A stretch of 6,463 nt of DNA, from positions 1 to 6,463 of the forward strand of contig MHDQ01000118.1 of assembly GCA_001803565.1 (NCBI GenBank), read 5' to 3'. Shown one piece after another: positions 1 through 6,371 of the stretch. Position numbers and translations under genes: made by a program. The stretch's first letter is position 1, and each line of letters begins with the position of its first letter. The DNA is from Nitrospinae bacterium RIFCSPLOWO2_12_FULL_45_22. GTDB taxonomy: Bacteria; 2-12-FULL-45-22. The notes beneath the pieces are model-generated. The model had not been told where the DNA came from and made no database searches. It was given only the letters and a program-made list of their open reading frames with translations.

Positions 1-113
1 TTATGATAATAAGCGTCAGTAGATGTATAATCTAACATTCCATCTTGTCCCTCTTTTTTGAATTGCTTCTCTAATATGCGAAAAGCTAATGCTTCAGCTA
101 TAACTTCGGCAAG
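1..113 (-). pseudogene. Out-of-frame C-terminal continuation of the GHKL ATPase gene
   Basis: Past the ATPase stop at 98-100, a different minus-strand frame reads LAEVIAEALAFRILE, then a Lys/Glu-rich stretch, and ends in DAYYH at the window edge with no stop. From memory of the family (inference), large GHKL ATPases of this kind often end in a helical 'aE.i.eal...ile' segment followed by a YY-containing helix, so this looks like the real C-terminus. It is offset by one base from the main frame. The region normally lying between VKGSEVGA and this helix, roughly 100 residues by my estimate, is absent, which favours an internal deletion over a simple one-base error. A separate gene or a chance open frame remains possible. 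Confidence 0.5.
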
Positions 114-1627
114 AGGGCAGCTCCAACTTCGGAACCTTTCACAGTGAATGTGGTTCTTCCGACTTTACCGTCATCTGATAATTTTTTCAAAAATACTGGC
201 GACGCACGAACTTTTATATTATCAGGATCACTGCTTATAATATTTATGGGTAAGGACTCATCCAAAAGTTCAAAATGTTTTATCACAATAGAAAAAGTTT
301 TAGGCTGATTAACTATAATAGGGTGTTCATCAGGCGGAATTATGTGTAATCCTATGCCGAGTTTTTTAATTTTGGAATCATCAATGTCCTCCGTTGGAAT
401 TTCTTCTTCTAATTCGGTTAATTTCTTCTCGAAAACTTTTGAAATCTCTTCCGAAAGGTCATCTAATTTTTTCTTAAGATTTTCATTCATAACATCTCGT
501 TTGAGAAGTTCCTCAGCGCTTTTTAGTTCTTCGATGAAAGGTTGTAGAATTTCTTTACATTTTTTATAAAGTGCCTGTGCAAAAGGATGTTCAAGTATCA
601 AGCCATCGCGGAACGGATCTAATAATCTCATCGGACTATTTGTAGGGTGATTTGGATTATCTGGATTTGCTTCTTCCCGATCGTCATATTCACGAATTAA
701 TTTATCAATAAAATCGCACCGCAATTTACCTGTAAATCTCCGAGAAAAAGGTTCTGATTCGAGCCCAAAATGATTGCAATCATGAATAGCTGCCGCACTT
801 TTAACCAAAATACCTTCTCTATAGGGAAGGTTTTCTTGCTCAAAAGAAGTCGCATGCTTATGGATAACAAGGTGGGCTGTTGCGTCAGGATAATTAGGAA
901 TTATAAAATCGCTATCAAATACAAATTCTCCCACCGGATACTTATAGATGAGGCGATCCTCTCGGTTTTTGTTTAGATCTACGAGTGTTACCTCTCTGTT
1001 AGGATTAGAAAATAAATCTCGCAGGCTATAATATCTATAAAAATCTTTTAACAGAGTTTCATGTTGCGGGACTTTAAACCTACTCTGGACCTTAATAAAC
1101 ACTACTGTGCCGTTGCCTCTTGGAACACCGAGTTTGTCCCGCGTCACAGCAGTGACCTTTTTAGGGCGAGGTTCTGTAAAGCGACATTTTAAGGAGGGAG
1201 GAATAATCAGGCAATTATATTCATCTCCTTTAATACTTTCAAAACGAACATCGCCAAAAGCGGAAACATCTCTTGCACCTCGTCCATGGAGACCCCGGCG
1301 TGCTTTTCCTTTCTCAAATCCTGAAGTTCTTCTACCCAATGTACCAAGTTTACGGAACATTTCTTCTCTGCTCATCCCTCCAGCTCTATCGCGTACTATC
1401 ACAATAGATGATTGCCCTTTTTTTCTCCTCTCAATCTCTATTCTGATTTTCCCTGAAGCTAGTTTTCCTCCTTCATCTTCTAAATCTCGATAGCTATCAT
1501 CGGAATTCGTTATTAGTTCTACCAACCCACGTTCAATTTTTCCCCTCATAGCTCTCTCCATATTCTGACGCTTATAGCGTGGGTCTGCTCCGAGGTCCCA
1601 TTCGGCTGGGATTTCACCTCTTGGCAT
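98..1627 (-). CDS. GHKL-type ATPase (Hsp90/MutL/MORC-like), C-terminus disrupted
   Basis: The 509-residue product is a GHKL (Bergerat-fold) ATPase, probably cytoplasmic. Seen: the N-box ELITNSDDSY at residues 37-46, with E37 in the place of the catalytic base and N41 as the Mg-binding Asn; DRAGGMS at 80-86, equivalent to DxGxG; and a glycine-rich lid GLHGRGARD at 112-120. These match the Hsp90/MutL/MORC branch rather than sensor kinases, and I see no phospho-acceptor histidine domain or membrane segment. A Lys/Glu-rich, probably coiled-coil stretch lies at about 375-415, followed by a beta-rich region. The start at 1627 is chosen because GGAGGTGA lies just upstream; an in-frame ATG at 1648 would enlarge the overlap with the preceding gene. 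It overlaps the winged-helix gene by 14 bp, implying coupled translation. The frame ends soon after VKGSEVGA, while family-like sequence continues in another frame to the window edge, so the gene is probably truncated. The fold is secure; the biological role is unknown. Confidence 0.85.
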   Translation of the reverse strand: MPRGEIPAEWDLGADPRYKRQNMERAMRGKIERGLVELITNSDDSYRDLEDEGGKLASGKIRIEIERRKKGQSSIVIVRDRAGGMSREEMFRKLGTLGRRTSGFEKGKARRGLHGRGARDVSAFGDVRFESIKGDEYNCLIIPPSLKCRFTEPRPKKVTAVTRDKLGVPRGNGTVVFIKVQSRFKVPQHETLLKDFYRYYSLRDLFSNPNREVTLVDLNKNREDRLIYKYPVGEFVFDSDFIIPNYPDATAHLVIHKHATSFEQENLPYREGILVKSAAAIHDCNHFGLESEPFSRRFTGKLRCDFIDKLIREYDDREEANPDNPNHPTNSPMRLLDPFRDGLILEHPFAQALYKKCKEILQPFIEELKSAEELLKRDVMNENLKKKLDDLSEEISKVFEKKLTELEEEIPTEDIDDSKIKKLGIGLHIIPPDEHPIIVNQPKTFSIVIKHFELLDESLPINIISSDPDNIKVRASPVFLKKLSDDGKVGRTTFTVKGSEVGAALLPKL

Positions 1628-2261
1628 TTCTTTCACCTCCTTTTTCACCTAAGAGTAATGCAAACTTCTTTCGACAGGAATTCACATAATTTTTAACTTC
1701 TTCTTTTTTCAGTTCTTCGGCTACTGAGTAGAGTTGCTCTAGTCGAGCGTTTAATACCTCGGCTCTAGTGTTTACGGTACAGACAATTGATTCAGCGAAC
1801 TCAGCATGTGAAATTTCTGCTTCTTCTCCGTACTCCCTAAACTTTTTGAAAGCTACACTTTTAAGAAGTTCTTTTAGTTTTCGATCTGCGGCTAAGCGGT
1901 CTCCTATTGGTCTATGTTCACCTAAATATTGTTCGATTCGTGGTTTATTCACTTTTATCCATTTAATTCCCTCAGCGGTAAGTATCCATCCTCCAACGCT
2001 CTTGACTGTTCTCTTCCTTTCGCTTTCTCCTTTAACTAAGGCCCCATATTTCGGCTTTTTTGCCGCTTCCAGCGCAAAACGGGCAGGTGCAAGATCTGGA
2101 TACTCCGGGTATTTTACCCAAGAAAATTTGGATGGAGCTACTTGGTAACACTTTAAAGCAATGTCTTCTGTATGAACGCGCTTCTGCCACCCTCCTAAAA
2201 GATAAAGGGCATAGAGAACGATATCCTTATCACTTAACTTATCTAATTTTTGTTCCTTCAT
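1614..2261 (-). CDS. Winged-helix-like protein, partner of the GHKL ATPase
   Basis: This 215-residue soluble protein belongs to no family I can name with certainty. Residues 10-50 (SDKDIVLYALYLLGG, then VHTEDIALKCY and FSWVKYPEYPD) look like a helix-turn-helix in which the 'tEdIA' helix follows a Gly-Gly turn. GGWILTAEGIKW at 90-101 resembles the closing strand and helix of a winged-helix domain ('GW.LT..G'). The C-terminal half, about 115-205, is charged and helical, rich in Lys/Glu with conserved-looking Phe and Cys (AFKKF, EFAESIVCTVN, CRKKFALLL); it could mediate protein-protein contact. I chose the ATG at 2261 because AAAAGGAA lies seven bases from it; the upstream GTG/ATG at 2288/2285 lacks a ribosome-binding site and would add nine residues. 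Its overlap with the ATPase suggests one transcript and a joint function. It might be a DNA-binding subunit or repressor of the cassette (inference). Confidence 0.8.
   Translation of the reverse strand: MKEQKLDKLSDKDIVLYALYLLGGWQKRVHTEDIALKCYQVAPSKFSWVKYPEYPDLAPARFALEAAKKPKYGALVKGESERKRTVKSVGGWILTAEGIKWIKVNKPRIEQYLGEHRPIGDRLAADRKLKELLKSVAFKKFREYGEEAEISHAEFAESIVCTVNTRAEVLNARLEQLYSVAEELKKEEVKNYVNSCRKKFALLLGEKGGERNAKR
1633..1640 (-). promoter_or_regulatory. Shine-Dalgarno deciding the GHKL ATPase start
   Basis: The minus strand reads GGAGGTGA, then five bases (AAGAA), then ATG at 1627-1625. This near-perfect anti-16S match lies inside the end of the winged-helix gene. It supports the start at 1627 over the in-frame ATG at 1648, which has no comparable site. 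Confidence 0.8.
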
Positions 2262-2344
2262 TTCACATTCCTTTTGCTTTAGCATCACATTATTTACTGA
2301 AATTTAAATAAGATCTTTTCAAGCAAAATGTCGCCTAACTTGTT

Positions 2345-2417: not shown

Positions 2418-2436
2418 ATATCCGAACTTCGGATAT
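2418..2436. repeat. Perfect 19-bp palindrome, operator-like
   Basis: The sequence is ATATCCGAACTTCGGATAT: two 9-base arms around a central C. It lies 14 bases past the E2 stop and upstream of the winged-helix gene. No T-tract follows on the minus strand, so a dimeric-protein binding site fits better than a terminator. Confidence 0.65.
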
Positions 2437-2449: not shown

Positions 2450-3640
2450 TTAAACCCAGGATATGGAAGGGAGGTTATTTTCTAATTTCTCTTTAATATC
2501 CGAGAGAAAAGAGGCAGCCAATGCACCATCTACTATTCGATGATCAGCAGCTAGCCCCAGGGTCATAATGGGTCTTATAGTCAACTCTCCCCTTGTTACC
2601 CAGGGGCGCTCCCTTATCCTTCCTACAGAAAGAATAGCCGTTTGAGGCGGGTTAATGATAGCCGTAAAGTAATCAACGCCATACATCCCCAGATTAGAGA
2701 TGGTGAAGGTACCTCCCTCTACCTCAGAGAAAGCCAGCTTATTATCCAGTGCCTTCTGAACTAGACTCGCTCTCTCTATCACTATATCAGATAAGGATTT
2801 ATCCGGTACACCTTTTATTACCGGCACTATAAGCCCTTCATCGGTTGCTACTGCCAGACCAATATTGATCTCTTTCAAAATCCTTATCTTATCGCCCTCC
2901 AGAGTAGCATTGAAGAGGGGAAATTGCGCTATAGAGAAGGTTACTATCTTAACCAATATATCGTTATAGGAGAGCTCTGGTATCCGCAGAAGGAACTTAG
3001 TCCTTAAGGCTTGCAGTTCATGGGCATCTATCTCGGTAAATAGATAGATATGGGGAATGGTAGAATAACTGGTTCCGAGCCTCTGGGAGATGATTTTTCT
3101 GCGGCGGCTCATAGGTATTATAGCCCCTAAGGTCAGGGATTCCTTTCCTTCGGCTATCTCCTCCTTGCCCTGAGCTTCCCAAAATGCCTCCACATCTTCT
3201 CTAGTTATCCTGCCACCAGGTCCGGTACCTTTTACCCCGGATAAATTGATCCCCTTTGCCTGGGCCAGCTTCCTTGCCGCCGGGGAGGCCTTTAGCTTAT
3301 CGGAAACCTGGTGCCGTTCAATGATTAATTCTTTCTGCGTAGTGCCTGACACCGTCTCTAAAGGCTTACTAACCAGATCTCCTGGGGATAGTTCCTCACC
3401 TTTATTAGCTATTAGGGCAAGGGTTTGGCCGACCGGGATAGGTTCTTCCGAGGGCATTATTAATATTTTTGCCAGGACCCCGGAACAAGGGGCCTCTATT
3501 TCGTACTCGATCTTATCCGATTCAATCCGGAGGATGGTTTGCCCTTCCTCTACCCTCTCTCCTTCGTCTACTAGCCATTCTACTACTTTCCCTTCGGTCA
3601 TGGACATGCCCAGTTTAGGCATAATAATCTTCCAGGCCAT
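2450..3640 (-). CDS. acoC: Dihydrolipoyl acyltransferase (E2) of the acetoin/pyruvate dehydrogenase complex
   Basis: The 396-residue E2 core transfers the acyl group made by E1 from its swinging lipoyl arm to CoA. Three parts are visible. A single lipoyl domain spans about 1-78, with the lipoylated lysine K43 in ESDKIEYE. After a short linker, the peripheral subunit-binding domain is at about 117-152 (KASPAARKLA, then GTGPGGRITREDV). The catalytic CAT domain spans about 172-396 and ends with the active-site DHRIVDG, with H367 and D371 as catalytic residues. The length is normal for a one-lipoyl E2. The ATG at 3640 has GGAG eight bases upstream. It follows E1 beta in the same direction but across a 199-bp gap containing a long inverted repeat. 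The acoC symbol rests on the AcoA-like neighbouring E1; pyruvate or a branched-chain 2-oxoacid as substrate cannot be excluded from E2 alone. Confidence 0.93.
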   Translation of the reverse strand: MAWKIIMPKLGMSMTEGKVVEWLVDEGERVEEGQTILRIESDKIEYEIEAPCSGVLAKILIMPSEEPIPVGQTLALIANKGEELSPGDLVSKPLETVSGTTQKELIIERHQVSDKLKASPAARKLAQAKGINLSGVKGTGPGGRITREDVEAFWEAQGKEEIAEGKESLTLGAIIPMSRRRKIISQRLGTSYSTIPHIYLFTEIDAHELQALRTKFLLRIPELSYNDILVKIVTFSIAQFPLFNATLEGDKIRILKEINIGLAVATDEGLIVPVIKGVPDKSLSDIVIERASLVQKALDNKLAFSEVEGGTFTISNLGMYGVDYFTAIINPPQTAILSVGRIRERPWVTRGELTIRPIMTLGLAADHRIVDGALAASFLSDIKEKLENNLPSISWV

Positions 3641-3661
3641 CTACTAAACTCCAAAAAATGC

Positions 3662-3837
3662 AAAGCTTAAAACGCAAAGCGCAAAACTAAGGTTAGACCG
3701 TAAGACCTAAGAGCGTTAGGAGAGAGGAGTAAGACATAAGTGGTAATGGACAAAACCAATTTCACCTTACTCCTCACCCCTTACGACTTACGCCCTATTT
3801 CTCGGCTCTACACCTTGCGCTTTACACTTTTAGCTTT
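3662..3837. repeat. Long imperfect inverted repeat between E1 beta and E2
   Basis: The outer arms at 3662-3684 and 3815-3837 match at 19 of 23 positions, including a run of nine (AAAGCGCAA against TTGCGCTTT). An inner pair at 3724-3733 and 3766-3775 (GAGGAGTAAG/CTTACTCCTC) is perfect, and a CGTAAG/CTTACG pair lies between them. On the minus strand the hairpin would be followed, after three bases, by six T residues (3658-3653) just before the E2 ribosome-binding site. It could be an attenuator or partial terminator lowering E2 relative to E1, or a MITE/REP-like insertion (inference). Confidence 0.6.
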
Positions 3838-3839
3838 CT

Positions 3840-4811
3840 TTACAGGATTTGACGGGCAGCCCTCAGGATCTTCTCTTCATCGGGTAAATAATGCTTCTCC
3901 AAAACAGGGTTGAAAGGTATAGGGACATCCGGGGCCGCTACCCTCTTAATAGGGGCATCCAGGGAATCAAAGGCCTCATCAGCAATCAGAGCCGCTATCT
4001 CTCCGCCAAACCCCCCAGTAAGGCACGCTTCATGGACTATAATTACCCGGCCGGTCTTTTCTACTGAGCTAAAGATAGCTTCCTTATCCAGAGGAACCAG
4101 GGTGCGTAAATCAATGACTTCTGCTTTAATTGCCTCTTTAGAGAGGATGTCCGCGGCCGAGAGACAGATATCTACCATGCGGGACCAGGAGATCAGGGTA
4201 AGGTCTTTACCTTCCCGCAGGATTTGTGCCTTTCCCAGTGGAATAGTATACTCCCCTTCTGGCACCTCTCCTTTCTTCCCATAGAGGAGCTTATGCTCAA
4301 TAAAAATAACCGGGTTATTATCCTTTATGGCAGCCTTCAGGAGGCCCTTAGCATCCTGAGGGGTAGAGGGCATGACTACTTTGAGGCCCGGGGTATGGGC
4401 AAACCAGGCCTCCAGACTCTGAGAATGCTGAGCTGAAGCACTGAACCCTGCACCAGCACAGGTCCTGATAGTGAGAGGCAAGGTGGCTTTCCCGCCAAAC
4501 ATATACCGCATCTTAGCCGCCTGGTTGACAATCTGATCCATAGCCACGGCAGTAAAATCTATAAACATTAATTCTATTACCGGCCTCATACCGGTGACGG
4601 CTGCGCCAATAGCTGAGCCAACGATAGCAGCTTCAGTAATCGGGGTATCCCGGACTCTTTCTTCGCCAAAATCTTCCAATAAACCACCGGTAACGCCAAA
4701 TACTCCACCCATCAGGCCTATATCTTCCCCGGCAATAAATACAGTGGGGTCTTTCTTCATCTCTTCCCGAAGGGCTTCATTTATAGCCTGAGCAAAGGTT
4801 ATCTCTCGCAT
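3840..4811 (-). CDS. acoB: Thiamine-diphosphate dehydrogenase E1 component, beta subunit
   Basis: This 323-residue beta subunit forms the alpha2-beta2 E1 heterotetramer that decarboxylates the 2-oxo substrate and acylates E2. The N-terminal pyrimidine-binding domain (about 1-175) shows [18 protein letters not shown] and [19 protein letters not shown]60 in ITE is the conserved glutamate that activates the thiamine aminopyrimidine. The C-terminal transketolase-like domain (about 190-320) holds [18 protein letters not shown] and [16 protein letters not shown], and ends in the usual [17 protein letters not shown] region. Length is typical. The ATG at 4811 is chosen because AGGAGGG lies four bases upstream and the protein then begins [14 protein letters not shown] as in the family; the frame is open for 25 more codons upstream, but those overlap E1 alpha and look unlike protein. 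It lies 13 bp after E1 alpha, so the two are surely co-transcribed. Confidence 0.94.
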
Positions 4812-4815
4812 AATT

Positions 4816-4822
4816 CCCTCCT
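4816..4822 (-). promoter_or_regulatory. Shine-Dalgarno deciding the E1 beta start
   Basis: AGGAGGG on the minus strand lies four bases before the ATG at 4811-4809, in the 13-bp gap after the E1 alpha stop. It fixes the start and excludes the longer open frame reaching 4886. Confidence 0.85.
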
Positions 4823-4824
4823 GA

Positions 4825-5787
4825 TTATGGTGTAAAGACATCTTCCAGCAACTTTTCCGTAGTGGGGTGCGGGCACTCCTCGGCATATTTTACAGTCTCT
4901 GCTATAGTCGCTCTTATCTCTTCCTCCATGGTTTCAAAACCCCTGGTTGTAAGTATCTTCATTTCTAATAGCTTATTCCTAAATCGCTTTATCGGGTCTT
5001 TTTTGGCCCACTCTTCCATCTCATTTTTAGTCCGATAGGCCATTGGGTCTCCTTCAAAATGACCCCGCAACCGATAAGTCTTGCACTCAATAAGGGTAGG
5101 CCCCTCCCCTGCCCGGGCCCTTCCTACTGCCTCATGGACCGCCTCATAGACCGCCAACACATCATTACCATCAATAGTTATACCCGGTATGCCATAGGCC
5201 TGGGCCCTATTAGATATATCCCTTATGTTTTGGTGTTTAGTCTGGCAAACGGATATTCCATAGAGGTTGTTTTCACAGATAAATATTACTGGTAGGCGCC
5301 AGACAGAGGACAGGTTAATCCCTTCATGAAAGGTGCTCTGGTTAGAAGCCCCATCACCAAAGAAGCATAGTGTTACCTGATCAGTCTTCCGGAGTTTAGC
5401 CGATAAACCTGCACCAGGGGCTATGGCCAGCCCTCCCCCCACAATGCCGTTAGCGCCTAAAATACCAATGTCCAGGTCAGAAATATGCATAGAACCACCC
5501 TTGCCTTTGCAGTATCCAGCTTCTTTACCATATATCTCCGCCATCATCTTCCGGAGGTCTCCGCCCTTAGCAATACAATGGCCGTGACCCCGGTGGGTAC
5601 TGGTTATATAATCATCCCTTCTCAGGGTAGTACAGGCCCCCGTGGCTACAGCCTCCTGCCCCACATATAAGTGGACAAACCCCGGGATACGGCCCTGAGC
5701 AAATAGTTCTGCTAACTTAAGCTCAAAATGACGGATAGTAACCATAACCTTCAATAATCCTAAAAGCTCCTTCTCAGTCAGGTCCAT
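4825..5787 (-). CDS. acoA: Thiamine-diphosphate dehydrogenase E1 component, alpha subunit (acetoin type)
   Basis: This 320-residue alpha subunit binds the diphosphate of thiamine diphosphate and partners E1 beta. The classic motif is complete: GDG at 144-146 and NN at 173-174, within [16 protein letters not shown] and FICENNLYG. Also present are [12 protein letters not shown] at 39-50, [12 protein letters not shown] at 64-75 and KGGSMHISD at 96-104. In the regulatory-loop region it reads [10 protein letters not shown]. From established family patterns, GHFEGD is usual in acetoin dehydrogenase AcoA, whereas pyruvate dehydrogenases generally show GHSxSDP; this is why I favour acetoin, although related 2-oxoacid enzymes share it. 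Length is normal for bacterial heterotetrameric E1 alpha. The ATG at 5787 follows GGGGAGGA at a six-base spacing. It is the first gene of the minus-strand operon, so its promoter must lie beyond 5787; no strong -35/-10 pair stands out there. Confidence 0.94.
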
Positions 5788-6282: not shown

Positions 6283-6371
6283 GCCGGGGTGGCGGAATTG
6301 GTAGACGCAAGGGACTTAAAATCCCTCGGTGTTACTGCACCGTGCCGGTTCAAGTCCGGCTCCCGGCACCA
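6283..6371 (+). tRNA. tRNA-Leu (anticodon UAA)
   Basis: This is a complete 89-nt class II tRNA that reads UUA (and by wobble UUG) leucine codons. The acceptor stem GCCGGGG pairs with TCCCGGC, with one G-U pair. The anticodon stem AGGGA/TCCCT (6310-6314, 6322-6326) encloses CTTAAAA with anticodon TAA at 6317-6319. The long variable arm CGGTG-TTACTG-CACCG is the leucine class hallmark. The T arm is GCCGG-TTCAAGT-CCGGC. Discriminator A is at 6368 and CCA is encoded at 6369-6371. TATAAA at 6269-6274 could be its -10 element, but no -35 is apparent. It is the only tRNA in the window and is oriented opposite to the protein genes. Confidence 0.97.

Follow-up and report, generated by a model that had tools for sequence, protein, structure and literature searches.

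A winged-helix gene coupled to a paraMORC-type GHKL ATPase, putative core of a laterally transferred conflict system

GHKL ATPases of the paraMORC class are found in restriction-modification operons (Iyer, Abhiman and Aravind 2008, PMC2292703), and the MORC family is united by an S5 signature, GhXhhpXXRhl (PMC2292703). VcSduA, a GHKL-Shedu protein assigned to paraMORC3, protects against phage in a manner that requires its ATPase (PMC12137116), MORC2 is described as compacting DNA (PMC12216690), and the CapK/CapS pair controls immune operons after DNA damage (PMC13373217). The two genes considered here, designated S and B, reside in a window (the whole stretch of DNA analysed, 6,463 nucleotides) that represents an entire contig (C118) of a 3.67-Mb, 321-contig MAG, and their features are the following.

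1614-2288, minus strand: open reading frame of S, open to a GTG at 2288, likely start ATG 2261
1614..2261, minus strand: S, winged-helix protein of 216 aa (ORF, 46-row family alignment, model)
1917..2261, minus strand: predicted winged-helix domain of S, of DNA-binding type (model residues 10-124)
1647..1916, minus strand: C-terminal helical domain of S (model residues 125-214)
1614..1627, minus strand: 14-bp overlap of the S stop and the B start, suggestive of translational coupling
98-1648, minus strand: open reading frame of B, likely start ATG 1627, as used in the relatives L015, L016 and L017
98..1627, minus strand: B, GHKL ATPase, shortened here, 509 aa from ATG 1627 (ORF, motifs, L015 model)
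1490..1522, minus strand: motif I (N-box) of B, VELITNSDDSY (49-row alignment)
1373..1390, minus strand: motif II of B, DRAGGM, i.e., D-x-A-x-G-M (49-row alignment)
1268..1297, minus strand: motif III (lid) of B, RGLHGRGARD (49-row alignment)
782..814, minus strand: S5 strand of B, GILVKSAAAIH, in the place of the MORC GhXhhpXXRhl, with R replaced by A
119..349, minus strand: B, truncated first Ig-like domain, limits approximate (about residues 425-510 of the L015 model)

Predicted folds and comparison with described systems

The smaller gene had originally been judged winged-helix-like from its sequence, and the structure predicted for S (mean pLDDT 89.9) indeed folds as a winged helix in residues 1-124, residues 125-214 being helical. 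The call is based on the secondary structure, in which helices 20-30, 40-50 and 66-77 and strands 85-88 and 100-103 follow the helix-helix-helix-strand-strand wing order, and on a second look with VIA-align, whose best row was F-93 of SSV1 (Z 9.9, rmsd 3.0, 89 residues), with the MarR family among the top rows (Z 9); Foldseek with the whole S model yielded no match at E<0.001. By structure comparison the fold is MarR/PadR-like, and the model points to S as a partner of DNA-binding type, the binding itself being predicted.

The original prediction of an ATPase of the MutL/Hsp90/MORC type with intact GHKL motifs is upheld, in that the N-box, motif II and lid are all present, the key residues of motifs I-III reach 90% conservation or more among 49 homologues, and the model of a homologue is clearly GHKL-S5. 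The Pfam profile HATPase_c_3 gives 21.2 bits on the window B, below the 25-bit cut-off, and exceeds this cut-off in the homologues L011, L012, L049 and L064. The full-length homologue L015 (750 aa), folded in place of the window B with a mean pLDDT of 85.6, consists of a GHKL domain (1-180), an S5 domain (to 345), a helical linker, two Ig-like domains (425-522 and 534-630) and a C-terminal part made of strands and two long helices. Residues 13-372 of this model align with Hsp90 (Z 22.6), while the comparisons with MORC3 (Z 21.6, rmsd 3.4, 296 residues), MORC2 (Z 21.4) and SMCHD1 (Z 20.8) give similar scores. With dN/dS relative to L015 at 0.07 for S and 0.11 for B, both frames evolve under purifying selection and neither is a product of chance. 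Structure comparison of the ATPase head also brought up phage RIIA proteins, an expected outcome for GHKL proteins; two predicted giant-virus proteins in BFVD, A0A1V0SGC9 (Hokovirus) and A0A5K0UA26 (Yasminevirus), match almost the entire L015 model (E 1.5e-30 and 5e-25), and all phage proteins match it far less well.

With MORC and SMCHD1 the B family shares the GHKL-S5 fold (Z ~21 over ~300 residues); unlike them, it lacks the signature arginine of S5 in 49 of 49 rows (A in 38, R in none), and neither a CW finger, nor a coiled-coil clamp end, nor an SMC hinge was recognised in B. B is thus not a MORC protein in the sense of Iyer 2008, GHKL motifs and S5 being present and the GhXhhpXXRhl signature absent. 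The resemblance to paraMORC is as follows: both have a GHKL head with intact ATP motifs, an S5 domain devoid of the MORC signature, a sporadic, lateral distribution and a neighbourhood rich in DNA methylases and restriction-type genes, and both are linked by the small gene c0 (see below). On the other hand, the steady partner of paraMORC is an SFII helicase whereas that of B is a winged-helix protein, and B has Ig-like domains; neither an RE-fold nor a TIR domain was recognised in it. Judging from the modelled domains, B would belong to the paraMORC class by its GHKL head and its signature-free S5, and not by a sequence match to paraMORC1-5. As to residence in restriction-modification operons, methylase, Mrr and DndB genes occur near the pairs and c0 provides a link to Dcm and Vsr, a complete R-M operon being absent at the window. 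Finally, VcSduA resembles B in its N-terminal GHKL ATPase and differs from it in having its own PD-(D/E)xK nuclease, DUF4263, for which neither Pfam nor PADLOC gave a match in full-length B homologues. On balance, we lean slightly towards placing S-B, as a variant, among the GHKL conflict ATPases of paraMORC type.

Pairing and spread of the two genes

The 14-bp overlap noticed in the original prediction is found at 1614-1627 when the B start is placed at ATG 1627, and recurs identically in the relatives L015, L016, L017 and L022. A second genome scan returned 80 loci; profile searches detected S in 50 loci, with B adjoining in all 50 and S directly upstream of B in 49, at gaps ranging from -107 to +41 bp. 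Among 386 genomes S occurs in seven and B in seven, and the five that have both have them side by side (Fisher p 6e-9), so that the expected co-occurrence of the winged-helix gene with the ATPase is borne out.

In the B tree one clade is accompanied by S in 44 of 51 rows, and a separate clade of 27 rows has S in none. Members of this S-less sister clade (L062-L094) are stand-alone GHKL ATPases of ~636 aa and come from Bacillota, Arthrobacter, Sulfurovum and beta-proteobacteria. In the two genomes with S alone, S adjoins other GHKL-type ATPases: one of 549 aa with transposases on both sides (L111), and one of 758 aa with Ig repeats and an adjoining DNA methyltransferase (L112). As it thus stands beside two further GHKL subfamilies, S partners with GHKL ATPases in general. 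At L111 (6556-11175), S and the ATPase form a unit with a protein of 740 aa that has a sigma-like HTH, and transposase genes flank this unit on either side.

The hosts of S-B belong to many bacterial phyla and to the archaea (Bathyarchaeota, Nitrososphaerota, Nanoarchaeota). The window B is 76-78% identical to copies in Nitrospinota and Nitrospira MAGs and 66% identical to a Chloroflexi copy, and this occurrence of close relatives in distant phyla indicates lateral transfer; S-B is a conserved cassette passed laterally among distant bacteria and archaea. The window proteins had no useful family match in NCBIfam, PADLOC or PHROGs, PADLOC models matched neither S nor B, and a search for close relatives with a single window protein found none. 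Searches with B as query revealed no homologues in phages, viruses or plasmids, and a literature search of incomplete coverage did not find a description of the pair. Two weak matches (G069, G063) were discarded, as they look antisense or non-coding.

Surroundings of the cassette and the small gene c0

The flanks of S-B pairs are not conserved. Among 137 genes lying within 1.7 kb of the pairs, Pfam recognised N6_N4_Mtase five times, Fic and ORF6N four times each, N6_Mtase, Mrr_N and PIN three times each, and DndB and DUF2130 twice each, whereas none of these eight families reaches two among 126 genes located more than 5 kb away; the enrichment has a Fisher p of 0.002 in the worst case, in which one gene per family is granted to the far set, and methylases alone are borderline (p 0.02-0.07). 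Hence the association of the pairs with defence-type genes is real, if loose. A methylase overlaps S in L012 and lies directly downstream of B in L040 and L044; at most loci, however, the genes immediately adjoining the pair include none recognised as a defence gene, and in L037, L041 and L050 the pair stands beside housekeeping genes. The neighbours are not consistently of the housekeeping kind, and of the defence role first proposed for the pair the plausibility of a conflict function is retained, tempered by the many loci situated beside ordinary genes. In L058, short methyltransferase-like ORFs were seen on either side of S-B, as if the pair had inserted into a methylase locus or broken it in two.

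A third gene, c0, encodes a protein of ~70 aa with the pattern RFKRLA..RTN..LGNCSN..Y.Y and is found upstream of S-B in 14 of 46 loci, two of them being the window relatives L016 and L017. That it might be exclusive to S-B is ruled out, eight of nine c0 genomes being devoid of the pair. Of the c0 loci outside the cassette, 14 could be evaluated (L129, L131 and L133 were left out as unjudgeable), and in 10 of these the gene immediately after c0 encodes another GHKL ATPase, the exceptions, with no GHKL ATPase following c0, being L126, L130, L132 and L142; the GHKL proteins of the 10 loci were recognised by eye from N-box and lid motifs, plus two weak Pfam matches. Different GHKL ATPases accompany c0 in L125, L127 and L128, the last also having Dcm and Vsr, and c0 precedes a GHKL ATPase on annotated plasmids (L134-L139, L141) of Ensifer, Arthrobacter, Dinoroseobacter, Priestia, Planococcus, Agrobacterium and Paenarthrobacter, several of these loci adjoining genes for Dcm, Vsr, Shedu, MutH/Sau3AI or type II restriction. 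The Ensifer adhaerens plasmid pCTYH.Ch1_3 (L134) combines c0 with an 800-aa GHKL-type ATPase related to that of L112 and with an S homologue (E 2.5e-10), the set being ~4 kb from a DNA methyltransferase. The Dcm-Vsr-GHKL-DUF6339 plasmid systems of Arthrobacter agilis (pAAG24-152) and Planococcus lenghuensis likewise have c0 directly upstream of the ATPase, although they differ from S-B in their GHKL subfamily, in their third and fourth genes and in possessing dedicated Dcm/Vsr/REase components. Inasmuch as c0 is common to S-B and to other GHKL loci of restriction type, it links S-B with the paraMORC class of restriction type; c0 is a shared leader gene, apparently undescribed so far. Small c0-like proteins also appear in Synechococcus phage records, that of S-N03 without an annotated GHKL gene nearby, and these could be decoys or unrelated look-alikes.

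It may be asked whether the pair could instead serve an ordinary cellular function, either as an accessory clamp for chromosome organisation or DNA repair, resembling MutL or SMCHD1, or as a specialised Hsp90-like chaperone that happens to spread laterally. The L015 fold is equally near to Hsp90, MORC, SMCHD1 and the gyrase/topo VI ATPases, several pair loci adjoin housekeeping genes and the S-less ATPase clade is frequent in Bacillota, Arthrobacter and Sulfurovum, all of which would suit such a function; against it stand the variability of the flanks and their enrichment in methylases and mobile genes, the link of c0 to Dcm/Vsr/REase operons and the patchy presence of B (7 of 386 genomes) with lateral spread over phyla. 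Mainly because of this patchy distribution, a housekeeping clamp or chaperone is considered quite improbable.

The main rival to a conflict function is a stress-sensing regulator, in which B would act as an ATP-driven switch or kinase that frees S, a winged-helix repressor, from an operator, the pair controlling its own or a neighbouring operon in the manner of CapK/CapS. The window offers a candidate for such an operator in the intergenic stretch upstream of S:

2418..2436, no strand assigned: perfect 19-bp palindrome ATATCCGAACTTCGGATAT, candidate operator, 157 bp upstream of S

The palindrome is single-copy in the genome (17-bp core, at most one mismatch) and an arm of such length arose in 5 of 2000 shuffles; further GAAGTxCG-like elements are seen in the same stretch at ~2344-2356 and 2376-2390. 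The MarR/PadR-like fold of S fits a repressor, and CapK with CapS constitutes a proven regulator pair of a GHKL and a wHTH protein beside immune operons (PMC13373217), comparable to S-B in the adjacency of the two proteins and in their link to immune operons. Yet CapK is an HTH-STAS-GHKL kinase and CapS a STAS-wHTH protein, whereas S consists of a winged helix with a helical bundle and B, like MORC and Hsp90, has an S5 transducer, followed by Ig-like domains, in place of a STAS-GHKL kinase layout; no fixed target operon adjoins the pairs and the palindrome is not conserved in L015-L017. Neither of the Pfam families of the HEF_HK / Response_reg_2 pair (PMC8011034) matched in B or S family members. 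Taken together, these data make the regulator unlikely. Upstream of S, on the same strand, the window contains ordinary metabolic genes, namely an operon named by eye as of the acetoin/pyruvate dehydrogenase type (2450-5787; E1 alpha, E1 beta, E2 lipoyl), and, close to the right end of the contig, a tRNA-Leu (taa) gene (6283-6371). Although tRNA genes often serve as integration sites, this one is separated from the pair by 4 kb.

State of the window copy and proposed function

The B proteins of relatives measure 750 aa (L015) and 754 aa (L017), compared with 509 aa in the window, where two further features account for the difference.

114..132, minus strand: junction of a ~575-bp internal loss in B, with frameshift (relative to L015 and L017)
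1..113, minus strand: out-of-frame remnant of the true B C-terminus (AEVIAEALAFRILEKQF...), from the translation; it continues in contig C101

Window positions 1-95 are identical to C101:10126-10220, an exact 95-bp overlap at the end of that contig, and the junction in B lies 19-37 bp away from the resulting contig fork. The missing ~200 aa (~575 bp) were not found elsewhere in the assembly, so that no hidden second copy came to light; nor was c0 found in this genome. Unless misassembly has produced the truncation, the window copy, which lacks c0 and part of B, is probably damaged. Whether it is a decaying remnant, an interpretation that concerns this copy alone and is compatible with any of the functions considered, is an evenly poised question: the internal loss with frameshift relative to L015 and L017, the disappearance of a c0 that L016 and L017 possess and the fact that S and the ATPase head alone are still open frames speak for decay, while the dN/dS of the surviving frames (0.11 for B, 0.07 for S) and the closeness of the break to the contig fork speak against it, the latter making strain mixture or misassembly as possible as a real deletion.

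The suggestion that an effector could lie beyond the left edge did not hold, none being found directly there; in C101, which is probably the adjacent contig, a DUF6036 nucleotidyltransferase and a PIN-domain gene (L003 8737-9577) follow ~0.5 kb past the B C-terminus. This nucleotidyltransferase and PIN pair looks toxin-antitoxin-like and is not a restriction gene.

The interpretation that we favour, by a modest preference, is that S and B form the core of a laterally transferred, paraMORC-type, restriction-like conflict system directed against foreign DNA, and a defence function of the pair is likely. It draws on the predicted folds, the pairing, the spread, the context enrichment and the link of c0 with Dcm, Vsr and GHKL genes. 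In such a system B would dimerise as a GHKL-S5 ATPase, and ATP binding would close its N-terminal domains round DNA, as in the MutL or MORC clamps. The Ig-like and C-terminal domains of B, together with S, could provide the substrate-sensing end, the winged helix of S binding DNA and thereby loading B on, or licensing it for, foreign or wrongly modified DNA; such DNA may end up entrapped and silenced, or a nuclease encoded at another locus may be recruited, and c0, where present, would be a small accessory protein common to other GHKL restriction-type systems. Clamping by B, targeting by S and a defensive outcome are thus what we infer from the comparisons described above.

None of S, B and c0 has a recognised domain of a nuclease, protease or toxin, and a RexA match in L064 (E 0.17) was taken as chance. 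A bolder version of the favoured interpretation, which we put forward tentatively and consider doubtful, holds that c0-S-B is a self-contained, nuclease-free defence, common to bacteria and archaea, in which a MORC-like ATP clamp, targeted by the winged helix, silences or entraps invading DNA. If this were true, c0-S-B would do in prokaryotes what MORC silencing does in eukaryotes, and c0 would be a common accessory of the GHKL conflict ATPases.

If the conflict interpretation is right, c0 would serve as a simple genomic marker for GHKL-based systems of restriction type; as one cassette resides on a plasmid of Ensifer, the interpretation can be put to the test in a host that is cultivable. S-B would then represent an unnamed family of conflict systems, composed of a winged helix and a GHKL clamp and often accompanied by c0, distributed over many bacterial and archaeal phyla and unrecognised by PADLOC and NCBIfam, that bears on how ATPases of the MORC type acted before the eukaryotes.
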